DNA from: a virus
DNA: 21,223 bases
IMG/VR virus record: IMGVR_UViG_3300025280_000227
Location: 1-21,223 of that record
Direction: 5' to 3' (one strand)
A model generated the notes under the pieces. It made no database searches. It had not been told where the DNA came from and saw only the letters and a list, made by a program, of their open reading frames with translations. Shown here in pieces: positions 8,301-19,502 of the stretch (its first letter is position 1; every line of letters begins with the position of its first letter). Made by a program: the position numbers and the translations under genes.

Positions 8301-8495
8301 GAGTTCTTTGCCAAGTGGGCCAAAGGGTCGCACAATCCACCCAGCAACACGCCCTGCCACCGAGGCGGCCGCGACTTGTGTGCGCTCGGGCTCCGGCTGA
8401 AGAGGCACCAAGCGCTGGTCGTTGGGGATCTGATGCTGTGGGTAATCGTCAGCAATATCTGAAATCAGATCCGCGGATGATGTATTAATTGCCAT
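5325..8495 (-). CDS. Very large ejection protein, polyvalent type (T7 gp16 position)
   Basis: A 1056-residue protein in the place of T7 gp16, the largest internal virion protein, which spans the cell envelope to pull DNA in. The N-terminal 120 residues are polar. Residues 124-150 hold a short module shared with the preceding protein. About 430-830 is a hydrophobic helical domain typical of large phage polyproteins: 'WINSLLSGWFTHLKNTGG', 'RWLVPFFKTPTNAILYVGER', 'HNKSFMAGPAMFMDATRNPG', 'RYGERMIRQYLKSLVPGS'. The hallmark 'EPERDLWGRKI' follows near 875-885. The final 90 residues are helical and charged. I see no transglycosylase motif, unlike the N-terminus of T7 gp16. The start at 8495 has a weak GGA ribosome site just after the terminator, and one base separates its stop from the tail-fibre ATG. 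Confidence 0.82.
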   Translation of the reverse strand: MAINTSSADLISDIADDYPQHQIPNDQRLVPLQPEPERTQVAAASVAGRVAGWIVRPFGPLGKELPSAFELYSRKMQKQKELEETLEGATETYQTPTGQTRTRLKIQEKFTVRKQPGPSDVDTGKWEAYDSANEKVLGTFDRKKDAKAYLKEQEPRIDETPPPEAPTTVERDIDYTGPLVNEMDRNDGYKMWTTIGDPELDKILEARTRQYDMDDGMIAGIRVQSKAGAEVPPGAEIKVPDEAHIYQTLDATGDAIEATLKKLGKDEITTVTLQQTEAMANILGTNPEALARTFLSGRFNLGPNSPPGELAAKIVAGKNMLVTEIRKLDELADRWAIDPSDKVRYEWKRQATYVANLQRSFRGAQTDIAQALGALRTTVSGDAELLARDYSRIIDQAGGADQLDHAIEAYRKSSDLVERAHQVRVVTKGQKLWDGVHEMWINSLLSGWFTHLKNTGGVAAAMILDTTELAVTAAWQVPRGLAGRERDVTFGDVQAQLFGQIMSLREASNAGGRAFWLREEAIAGAEMSLITGRNPLKRADAISAETWEKGGMYGAAINAFGHLVTLGRAPTRALMMEDAFMKVVAYRGQLWEEAFRQGRQLGKKGDDLSEYMADFVMNPTKEMAEKAREKARYVTLQTDMEGRLKKLQEAMGGSGRWLVPFFKTPTNAILYVGERSLIAPWMKRYTDAAEEGGVALAKARTKIAVGQSIMLGFAFEYKAGNITGGISADKDIRAAYERQGIKPYHIKIGDTWYNYGVIEPLATMIGLFVDTLEISQHPQLDERTSTEIVLAAIGAIGYNLHNKSFMAGPAMFMDATRNPGRYGERMIRQYLKSLVPGSAAWNELKVATDELKRLRVNTLDHVAARLPGWSLTLEPERDLWGRKIVHSRTRSPYDPNIVDQELVYLDTGQNDATLTGHPTNLGGDIGLEAKEIAWFHERAGTMAFQVLEYIINPDSKTKPSDLPKNTDGDGPLLGAGYAEIKENYRKMIAASRQGNKLAHDAARQSVRGIMGAVRSLAKFQLMTESPYAEELASIRDELNLEIEKLGLESLQLMEAQ

Positions 8496-17074: not shown

Positions 17075-17665
17075 CTACAGCCTCGCATTAACCAGGGTGT
17101 CTGCTTGCAACGAACCACTCACCGTGACGCTTTGCAGGGCACCCGGTGTTCCCTCGGTCGCATCAACAAATCGCGCCTCGCTCAACTTTGCTTCGTATAA
17201 CTGGAACATGGTGCCCGTCAGCGTGCTCGATTGCACCAGCGCGTAGCTGGTATCCGCAGCCAGGCGCGCCGCAATTGCTTCGACCAACAGCTGGTCATAC
17301 TCATTGGGATCGGTAACGCGAGCAAGGTAGATGACCTTGACGGTATCCTCGTCGCAGTGGATCTTCCGGCCTTCCACGCGGAAGTCGACATCGAGGTACT
17401 CGAGGCGCAGAACGCGCAGGCAGTAGGGATCAGTGGGGAGTGTAAACTGATTGGTGAAACCGAAAGCGGGACTGTCGCTGTCGGCAGCGATTTCGACGCG
17501 GGAGATCGCGCAGTTCCACGGATGGGCCCGGAGCACGGCGTCCCTCACGTAGTCGTAGCGTTGGTTGGTAATCCGCGCGGACTTGCTGTCTTCGCTGCGG
17601 GAAATAATGTTGCTTGCGCCGACCATGTTTAGCGCGGAATTAATGATGTCAACTTCACTCGCCAT
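17075..17665 (-). CDS. Tail tubular protein A-like adaptor (T7 gp11 type)
   Basis: A 196-residue homologue of T7 gp11, the ring that joins the portal to the tail nozzle. The N-terminus 'DIINSALNMVGASNI' and the hallmark 'YDYVRDAVLRAHPWNCA' are diagnostic. They are followed by 'FTLPTDPYCLRVLRL', an acidic 'VEGRKIHCDEDTVKVIYLARV' strand set, and 'LLVEAIAARLAADTSYALVQS' near the C-terminus, again typical for the family. The start at 17665 has AGGAG at good spacing. It overlaps the dioxygenase stop by 11 nt, and its TAG stop abuts the ATG of the nozzle gene with no gap, so adaptor and nozzle are probably made in a coupled way. Confidence 0.93.
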   Translation of the reverse strand: MASEVDIINSALNMVGASNIISRSEDSKSARITNQRYDYVRDAVLRAHPWNCAISRVEIAADSDSPAFGFTNQFTLPTDPYCLRVLRLEYLDVDFRVEGRKIHCDEDTVKVIYLARVTDPNEYDQLLVEAIAARLAADTSYALVQSSTLTGTMFQLYEAKLSEARFVDATEGTPGALQSVTVSGSLQADTLVNARL

Positions 17666-18080
17666 TGTCGGCTCCTAAAAATACCAGCAATACTTTTCTG
17701 CTTCCTTGGTGCGGCAACACCCGATGCCGTTCGTCGGACGTGTAAATAATTGCGTCCAGGTAATGCGCCGAGTGCTCCTCGGACGGGTCGGCAAACTGGA
17801 ATGCGCCACCTTCAAATCGATCGGGCGGGGTCAGCAAAACCGATGCACTCCATGCGCACCAGGGCATGTGGTTGCTGTCGCCGGTATCAACGTGCCAGTC
17901 GTGCCCGTCAGACTTGCCTTCGATCCTGCAATAACTTTTCGGTGTCACGACAGCGCCGAGGCGCTCCATCTCACCGACTACCTTGGGGATTGCGCCGATG
18001 TCAAAGGGCACTTTCCCGTTGAACCCCACGAGCGTTTCCGCTTCCGCCGGGGTCAAAATGTTTTCAACGTAACGACGCAA
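17655..18080 (-). CDS. 2-oxoglutarate/Fe(II)-dependent dioxygenase (prolyl-hydroxylase-like)
   Basis: A 141-residue compact dioxygenase of the prolyl 4-hydroxylase type, which uses 2-oxoglutarate and oxygen to hydroxylate a substrate. All key residues are visible: the metal ligands H63 and D65 in 'WHVDTGD', the third ligand H119 in 'DERHRVLP', and R128, placed to bind the 2-oxoglutarate carboxylate. The strand 'FEGGAFQF' (89-96) matches the family's 'y.GGel.F'. The length covers the double-stranded beta-helix core with a short N-terminal helix. The start is the TTG at 18080. The next in-frame Met (residue 38) would cut into the fold but keep all ligands, so it cannot be excluded. It lies between the cement-like gene and the tail adaptor, and its 3' end overlaps the adaptor gene by 11 nt. 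The substrate is unknown; a virion protein or a host protein are both possible. Confidence 0.85.
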   Translation of the reverse strand: MRRYVENILTPAEAETLVGFNGKVPFDIGAIPKVVGEMERLGAVVTPKSYCRIEGKSDGHDWHVDTGDSNHMPWCAWSASVLLTPPDRFEGGAFQFADPSEEHSAHYLDAIIYTSDERHRVLPHQGSRKVLLVFLGADNGE

Positions 18081-18120
18081 AGAAAGGGGAGAGGCGCGAA
18101 CGCTACCTCTCCCGCTCCTT
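18081..18120 (-). promoter_or_regulatory. Ribosome site bridged by an 8-bp hairpin before a TTG start
   Basis: On the minus strand AAGGAG (18120-18115) sits right at the stop of the preceding gene. It is followed by one base and then a perfect 8-bp stem GGGAGAGG/CCTCTCCC (18113-18087, 11-nt loop that can itself pair GCG/CGC). Six bases and a TTG codon at 18080 follow. Unfolded, the Shine-Dalgarno is 34 nt from the TTG; folded, only 7 nt remain between them, which is an ideal spacing. No other ribosome site lies near the TTG. The stem is followed by C-TTT-C-TTT, so a weak intrinsic terminator behind the capsid genes is the alternative reading. Confidence 0.55.
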
Positions 18121-18623
18121 TAGTCGATGACGTAGGTAATGAGGTACGACAGATCGCCGGCGGTGTCGCCTGCGGCGTCGGTTTCAAGACCTATGAAGTA
18201 GTAGCCCCCAGGATCGGTGCTGTCGCCAGCATCTTCCCAGACGCGCTGCCCCATCGTATTGACATTGCGCGCTTCAAACGCAACTTCCGTACCCGTGAGC
18301 ACAGCGGCCCTCAGATCGGTCGTCGCACTTGCATAAGCGTCAACGTCTTTTGCCGTCACGTTACCGTCTGCCGTATACAACCCGACGTGCATCGTTACGG
18401 TTGTGCCAGAGTCAAGATCGTCATTGTAGATCTTGATACTAACTACCGCAGCGTTGGTCGGAATTGGAGCCAACATGATGGTATCGCCGGCAGACAGATC
18501 GCCTGCCGCCAGCGCAATAGTTCCGCACGCAACACGCATCGAACCATGCAACTGGTAGGACGGGCTGTGTACACGCGGTGATGCCAGATGATTACTGGCA
18601 AGGGTCTGATTGACATTAGCCAT
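18120..18623 (-). CDS. Cement/decoration-like capsid accessory protein
   Basis: A 167-residue protein 12 nt after the capsid gene, with an AGGGGGG ribosome site. It is beta-rich: 'MRVACGTIALAAGDLSAGDTI', 'NAAVVSIKIYNDDLDSGTTV' and 'GGYYFIGLETDAAGDTAGDL' suggest a jelly-roll-like sandwich. The phrase types 'AaGDls.gD.i...plp.na.v....i..dDlDsg' are typical of the proteins that follow the capsid gene in this phage group. In BPP-1 the corresponding product (Bbp16) is a cement protein that clamps capsid subunits from outside; I infer the same role here by position and fold type. The stop TAA overlaps the AAGGAG ribosome site proposed for the next gene. Confident as a capsid-module protein, less so for the exact role. 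Confidence 0.72.
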   Translation of the reverse strand: MANVNQTLASNHLASPRVHSPSYQLHGSMRVACGTIALAAGDLSAGDTIMLAPIPTNAAVVSIKIYNDDLDSGTTVTMHVGLYTADGNVTAKDVDAYASATTDLRAAVLTGTEVAFEARNVNTMGQRVWEDAGDSTDPGGYYFIGLETDAAGDTAGDLSYLITYVID

Positions 18624-18635
18624 TGTTCAGCCCCC

Positions 18636-19502
18636 CTATTCTGAGCAGAGGATCTGAACTACTTTTTCCTCTTCCATGCGCGTGGCACCAAACTGTGCAC
18701 ACACATAGACTTGGGTCGAGTAGGACTTATCCGCTCTCTGGGTGATCTGGGTCATCAGGTCTTTGCCCATCGCCAGTGTAATACCGTCCTCGGCCCACGC
18801 CAGAACCTGGCGGTAGGACGAACTGTCGGTATTCAACCGGGTCGAGGTAATGAACTCAAAACCCATGAAGGTGTTGATGTCACCTTGTACCAATGCCTTG
18901 ACCGTATTGTAGTCGGCACTGGTTACGGTGCTGTCGTTCAAGAGGTCTTCAATCTGTTCTGGATGAACAGCGATATACCGCTTGATCGACGGATCAACAT
19001 TGTTCTGGTCAAGTATCTTTTTCGCATTGACCATCTTTGCGATTGTTAGCCCGGCCGCTGGCGAAGCAACGCCAACAATCTGACCAGCTGGAAGCGCCGT
19101 AGAGGTGCTTCCAGACTTACCCGTCAGTGCAGTACCGTCAGCCGCGTCTATAATTGCGGTGTCGACTGCACGTCCGATTGCATACGCCGCAGCGTTTGCG
19201 TAACTCGACGTCGGGTCAATTAACATGGCAACCTTATCAGCATCGTCGATAAGGTCGGCATATTCCCAGTGATCCATCGTGACCATCCGCCTCGAGTGAG
19301 GCGTATCGGAAATCGGTGTATCACCGTGACGCGACGTCTTCTTGGCGGCCGTAGCCGAACCTACCTGGTCGAAAAACGCTTTCTCGCCAGTTACAGGCTC
19401 TTCACGTACGGCGCGTCTAAGGAGACTGCCTTTCTGTTGTGACAACATCTGCACGTTAGCGCTGAACTGTTGCACAAAGGCAGTCGTGATTTGTGTACTC
19501 AT
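18636..19502 (-). CDS. Major capsid protein
   Basis: A 288-residue protein of the capsid family common in BPP-1-like and marine podoviruses, expected to have the HK97 fold and form the icosahedral shell. Supporting features are the N-terminal 'ITTAFVQQFSANVQMLSQQKGS' type helix, the Arg-rich E-loop-like segment ('SRHGDTPISDTPHSRR'), and 'DHWEYADLIDDADKVAML' followed by 'AAAYAIGRAVDTAIIDA', a capsid hallmark in this group. A later 'AVHPEQIEDLL' also fits, as does the C-terminal 'AQFGATRMEEEKVVQI', with the family's late conserved 'GA.R...e.VV'. It is shorter than the roughly 330 residues usual for larger relatives, so any insertion domain is small. The start at 19502 is supported by AAAGGAG just upstream. 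The separate leader and strong ribosome site fit the high expression a shell protein needs. Confidence 0.93.
   Translation of the reverse strand: MSTQITTAFVQQFSANVQMLSQQKGSLLRRAVREEPVTGEKAFFDQVGSATAAKKTSRHGDTPISDTPHSRRMVTMDHWEYADLIDDADKVAMLIDPTSSYANAAAYAIGRAVDTAIIDAADGTALTGKSGSTSTALPAGQIVGVASPAAGLTIAKMVNAKKILDQNNVDPSIKRYIAVHPEQIEDLLNDSTVTSADYNTVKALVQGDINTFMGFEFITSTRLNTDSSSYRQVLAWAEDGITLAMGKDLMTQITQRADKSYSTQVYVCAQFGATRMEEEKVVQILCSE

Follow-up and report, generated by a model that had tools for sequence, protein, structure and literature searches.

How translation begins at a dioxygenase-like gene that starts with TTG and has no ribosome site close by was the question raised by a gene junction in a 21.2-kb IMG/VR virus record (21,223 nt; this whole stretch of DNA is called the window). 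The junction was read on the minus strand, where the gene follows a cement/decoration-like virion protein gene and a hairpin lies between the two. Judging from the sequence comparisons, we consider it reasonably likely that this hairpin acts as the spacer of a split ribosome-binding site for the dioxygenase.

The cement/dioxygenase junction

The following features were located at the junction:

18120..18623, minus strand: cement/decoration-like virion protein gene, 167 aa, stop TAA at 18122-18120
18115..18121, minus strand: Shine-Dalgarno (SD) sequence AAAGGAG overlapping the cement stop codon (from the sequence; -7.9 kcal/mol with ACCUCCUUA)
18120-18115, minus strand: AAGGAG, then a single C at 18114
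18087..18113, minus strand: candidate bridging hairpin, 8-bp stem plus a T-G pair, loop of 9-11 nt (from the sequence and the fold)
18113-18106, minus strand: 5' arm, GGGAGAGG
18105-18095, minus strand: loop, TAGCGTTCGCG
18094-18087, minus strand: 3' arm, CCTCTCCC
18081..18086, minus strand: CTTTCT, stem-to-start spacer and putative eroded terminator U-tract; together with TTG able to form the outer helix with the SD
17655..18080, minus strand: 2OG-Fe(II) dioxygenase-like gene, 141 aa, TTG start at 18080-18078

On this strand the 3' end of the cement gene reads TAAAGGAGC, followed by GGGAGAGG-TAGCGTTCGCG-CCTCTCCC, CTTTCT and TTG. The preliminary description had placed AAGGAG 34 nt from the TTG and a perfect 8-bp stem, GGGAGAGG/CCTCTCCC, in the gap between them; a base-for-base check of the minus strand agreed with the distance and confirmed the stem. 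It had also counted exactly 7 unpaired nucleotides. Outside the 8-bp stem 1+6 = 7 nt are indeed left, but the predicted fold pairs them in an outer helix. The absence of any other ribosome site before the TTG was borne out, as no SD was found in the normal window before this codon (E +1.2). The SD energies of the other structural genes of the window were -9.1 (capsid), -11.0 (cement) and -6.5 kcal/mol (tail tubular A).

The capsid protein of the window was assigned to PF19821. Proteins of the Pelagibacter phages HTVC010P and HTVC034P shared up to 67% identity with the cement protein (67% for HTVC010P), which also weakly matched phrog_8455, a virion structural protein (E 1e-7). No Pfam match was obtained for the dioxygenase; its profile matches were phrog_61 (E 1e-3) and the PKHD-type hydroxylase PDB 3dkq (E 3.5e-4). 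Residues H63, D65, H119 and R128 were invariant in the dioxygenase alignment A1, and the 141-aa gene carries both the HxD...H...R motif and the profile match by which a 2OG-Fe(II) dioxygenase is recognized. In the same alignment the TTG sits at the homologous start position, ahead of an invariant Arg2. Homologues of the dioxygenase were absent from 50,697 phage records; relatives were common in IMG/VR.

Shine-Dalgarno sequence, hairpin and start among relatives

Relatives were gathered by cement and dioxygenase searches and reduced to 115 distinct cement-stop regions, in which the next gene was a dioxygenase (27), tail tubular A (63), a small Pelagibacter-phage gene (7) or another gene (18). 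A strong hairpin followed the cement stop in 100 of the 115 regions (26, 49, 7 and 18 in the same order). At 22 dioxygenase loci a canonical start was found directly past the hairpin, homologous to the TTG of the window and before the invariant Arg. When an SD was required to have at most -4 kcal/mol and to be sited between the cement stop and the stem, it preceded the hairpin at 20/22 of these loci versus 5/74 other hairpins (Fisher 5e-14, uncorrected for relatedness). An SD after the hairpin was present at none of the 22 loci, versus 40 of the 49 tail tubular A loci, where the usual order was hairpin, U-tract, and the SD and ATG of the next gene.

The remaining four hairpin-bearing dioxygenase loci had TTA or TTT at the homologous codon and a frame open through the hairpin from an upstream start. 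None of these four carried an SD before the hairpin; hence, what the SD accompanies is a start located past the hairpin and not simply the presence of the gene. At 11 loci, namely the window and ten others with stops at various places, no other canonical in-frame start was found between the cement stop and the homologous start, and 10 of the 11 had an SD-like sequence there. The linear distance from SD to start was 34-43 nt across the loci and the bridged one 7-15 nt (7 in the window); the bridged spacing was not tighter than the linear spacing, which was about equally constant. One locus (L179) kept the hairpin and an ATG with the SD absent. Weaker cases were L015, L100 and L118/L121/L170, which had alternative in-frame starts at or inside the hairpin. 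The cement frame of L100 was apparently disrupted or frameshifted, with a long branch and odd composition, perhaps owing to a sequencing error.

The trait changed about six times on the cement tree. Owing to the relatedness of the loci, the supported branches yielded just 4 independent contrasts, and these usually all pointed the expected way (p 0.125). The preliminary description had regarded relatives with the gene but with neither stem nor spacing as potential evidence against bridging. The relatives in which the stem was missing did not speak against it, since their gene mostly abutted another stop or had a linear SD. The dioxygenase started directly after the stop of another gene in L104, L115 and L129, outside the cement context, and L004 had a TTG start with a linear SD, AAGG, 7 nt away.

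Frames of dioxygenase homologues were also seen to begin directly after an upstream stop in L104, L105, L107, L108 and L117, as well as in L016 at 3506. In the L104 group and L016 the homologous start was CTG (in-frame TAA-CTG; L104 start 2501) or ATT, and these were apparent non-canonical, stop-coupled starts.

Between the cement and tail tubular A genes, the conserved hairpin was followed by a site of variable gene content (window 18087-18113; loci L007-L252). This site was occupied by the dioxygenase, by a 74-aa gene in Pelagibacter phages and by other small genes (L019/L022, L052). In Pelagibacter phages HTVC035P and Lederberg (L089, L090) the ATG of the small gene was located directly behind the stem, with no clear SD on either side. 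At L094 60-169 the hairpin was as in L010, and a tiny ORF (ATGCCGGCGACCGTAAGTTATTGA) lay in extra sequence before a GTG-start dioxygenase.

Terminator character and stem conservation

The T7 T-phi is an intrinsic terminator after the phage capsid gene. The hairpin described here resembles it by its position after the capsid and cement genes, its GC-rich stem and, in the sister phages, its U-rich tail; it differs by a degraded U-tract and a score below threshold in the window and 16/22 dioxygenase loci. The terminator score was an approximate d'Aubenton-Carafa score, with values above 0 taken as positive. It was positive for 37/49 tail tubular A loci versus 6/22 dioxygenase loci (p 8e-7). The window scored -12.3 against a median of +12.3 in relatives with tail tubular A next and thus fell outside the definition of an intrinsic terminator, a GC-rich hairpin with a direct U-tract and a score above threshold. 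A pattern scan for terminators with a loop limit of 8 did not pick up the window hairpin either. Clear terminators stood at the homologous place in sister phages, e.g., L012 and L014, and the window retained CTTTCTTT after the stem. In L025 the U-tract was absent and the hairpin, SD and ATG were kept.

The comparison of the 27-nt hairpins of the window and L010 revealed six differences, four of which made up two double changes (A-U to G-C and G-C to A-U), and no stem pair was broken. Hence, the compensatory changes that the preliminary description had suggested looking for were found, both bases being replaced in each of two pairs. Because a MAFFT alignment of all hairpins slipped register between families, the reading of covariation was confined to comparisons within families and to the window/L010 pair, which is ungapped. 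Individual stems had about -15 to -27 kcal/mol, and the median over all loci of a class was -21.8 for dioxygenase versus -14.5 kcal/mol for tail tubular A. The distances from stop to start fell into each of the three phases, and a conserved coding role of the hairpin was dismissed for this reason. A coding hairpin in the window was likewise rejected, as no in-frame start lies ahead of the TTG and the phases vary.

Termination is probably not what has preserved the hairpin in the dioxygenase subset, since the terminator scores were weak, the stems were at least as strong, L025 had lost the U-tract and no pairs were broken. Some partial or residual terminator activity may persist in the dioxygenase loci, most of all in L118, L121 and L170. 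The weak terminator that the preliminary description had offered as an alternative was right as to the place, where relatives have a terminator, but did not agree with the scores of the window and the dioxygenase loci. As a terminator occupies this site in relatives, the two readings need not exclude each other: the hairpin was probably a terminator in the past and is probably a bridge now.

Elsewhere in the window, at 8530-8512 on the minus strand, a terminator-like hairpin AACCCGC-TTCTG-GCGGGTT with T6 was located just ahead of an ATG at 8495. The next large gene starts at this ATG and has only a weak GGA as a ribosome site.

Predicted fold, coupling and alternative explanations

The junction fold of the window was more stable than 200/200 dinucleotide shuffles (z -4.5). 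No Rfam match was found within 17900-18700, and a known RNA family was rejected. The predicted minimum-energy fold extends outward by pairing UAAAGGAG with CUUUCUUUG, which would place the SD and the TTG inside an outer helix; in this helix the SD also pairs with CUUUCUUU ahead of the TTG, and both would be masked. The unpaired probability of the window SD was at most 0.07. Opening the whole linear stretch was calculated to cost 34 kcal/mol and the bridged state 14.8 kcal/mol, with 3.8-11.9 kcal/mol for the bridged state in relatives, below the value of the window. By this model the window is the most masked case among the loci: nearly the whole SD is paired, and a cost of 14.8 kcal/mol for the bridged state stands against -7.9 kcal/mol from the SD, so that unaided initiation would be poor there. 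When segments were swapped between groups, co-evolution of the outer helix that masks the SD fell short of significance (p 0.14) and is not claimed; the masking step is therefore put forward with caution.

The bridging proposed in the preliminary description was favored over a weak terminator by the relatives, namely by the position of the SD before the hairpin, the stem covariation and the degraded U-tract and score. However, the SD itself is paired in the predicted fold of the window, so simple bridging appears incomplete and translational coupling of the dioxygenase to the cement gene is likely. Our proposal is that, as in T4 genes 38 and 25, the GC-rich hairpin remains folded, so that only about 7 nt separate the TTG from the SD at the cement stop. 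The window would additionally form the weaker outer helix, in which this SD pairs with the bases just ahead of the TTG. A ribosome terminating on the cement stop codon, with which the SD overlaps, would cover and open the outer helix. A 30S subunit could then bind the SD, with the start kept nearby by the inner hairpin, and dioxygenase synthesis would thereby be tied to cement translation. Such coupling fits the frequent starts of the gene directly after another stop elsewhere (L104, L115, L129). The hairpin itself would probably be an old post-capsid terminator, altered after the dioxygenase took the cement-tail slot. In known cases of translational coupling an upstream ribosome opens a masked SD, and the start usually lies at the normal SD distance. 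The junction shares with them an SD that overlaps the stop codon of the upstream gene and is predicted to be paired, and differs in the persistent inner hairpin that would separate the SD from the start.

An SD at the stop could instead serve re-initiation only, by 70S scanning or 30S retention, and the hairpin would then be an inherited obstacle. This is unlikely in our view, though it agrees with the overlap of the SD and the cement stop in the window and several relatives and with the family members outside the cement context whose start abuts an upstream stop. A scanning ribosome would have to melt the whole stem, and the stems of the dioxygenase loci are strong despite the lost terminator features. 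A lower probability was given to a hairpin that serves chiefly as an intrinsic terminator, or as a structure at an mRNA 3' end, behind the capsid genes, positioned like T-phi, with the dioxygenase weakly produced by read-through. The clear terminators of the sister phages and the sequence retained after the window stem point in that direction; the scores of the window and most dioxygenase loci and the L025 locus point away from it, and it leaves unexplained why an SD precedes the hairpin mainly where a start follows.

It is very improbable that the dioxygenase starts elsewhere, by read-through of the cement TAA or from a start inside or before the hairpin, with the TTG needing no ribosome site. 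In favor of this reading, the cement stop of the window shares the frame of the dioxygenase, the start is upstream in L061/L234/L017/L028, and in-frame starts close to the hairpin are present in L015 and L118/L121/L170. On the other hand, the window has no in-frame ATG, GTG or TTG from the cement stop to the TTG, and 22 loci have a canonical start ahead of the invariant Arg2. Only some relatives have their cement stop in frame, and read-through was rejected as a general mechanism on this ground; all three phases occur.

Compared with these alternatives, the split ribosome-binding site has a direct precedent. The hairpin of T4 gene 38, mentioned in the preliminary description, was confirmed in the literature to cut the SD-AUG distance from 22 to 5 nt, and at the gene 26-25 junction an intercistronic SD 27 nt off gene 25 is brought to 11 nt by a hairpin, an arrangement conserved in close relatives only (PMC3014915). 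The bridged spacing of 7-15 nt was close to the T4 range (5 and 11), and four T4-type features, namely a distant SD, a spacing-reducing hairpin, no SD at the normal distance and conservation with compensatory changes, were present. As in T4 gene 25, the intercistronic SD is linearly too far away and the intervening hairpin would shorten the gap to a functional distance. Unlike T4 gene 25, the arrangement occurs in unrelated marine podovirus-type phages with a strong GC-rich hairpin and TTG, GTG or ATG starts, the hairpin stands at the terminator place of sister phages, and the SD can pair with the bases before the start. T4 gene 25 was demonstrated by reporters and DMS probing, whereas the phage dioxygenase case is argued by comparison only. 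T4 gene 38 likewise has an intervening structure that shortens the gap, although the gene is another one and the T4 stretch is shorter; we know of no relation of that hairpin to a terminator.

No bridging-hairpin precedents beyond T4 were found in the literature searched, which yielded only the T4 review (PMC3014915). Hairpin-bridged ribosome sites rest, as far as found, on two T4 genes, and about 20 natural variants are added here. The kind itself is known from T4; what is new is that the putative bridge sits at the terminator position of sister phages. The series has built-in controls, namely the hairpin site without the gene, the gene without the hairpin and the gene with an upstream start, and offers a direct way to test what governs bridging, namely the permitted spacing, the strength of the stem and the masking. 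It is quite possible that in this marine clade a post-capsid terminator hairpin was turned, possibly more than once, into a structural spacer through which an inserted auxiliary gene is translated only in dependence on the capsid cement gene, while the sisters keep the terminator. The series suggests a route by which a phage may place an additional gene after a terminator even if that gene brings no ribosome site.
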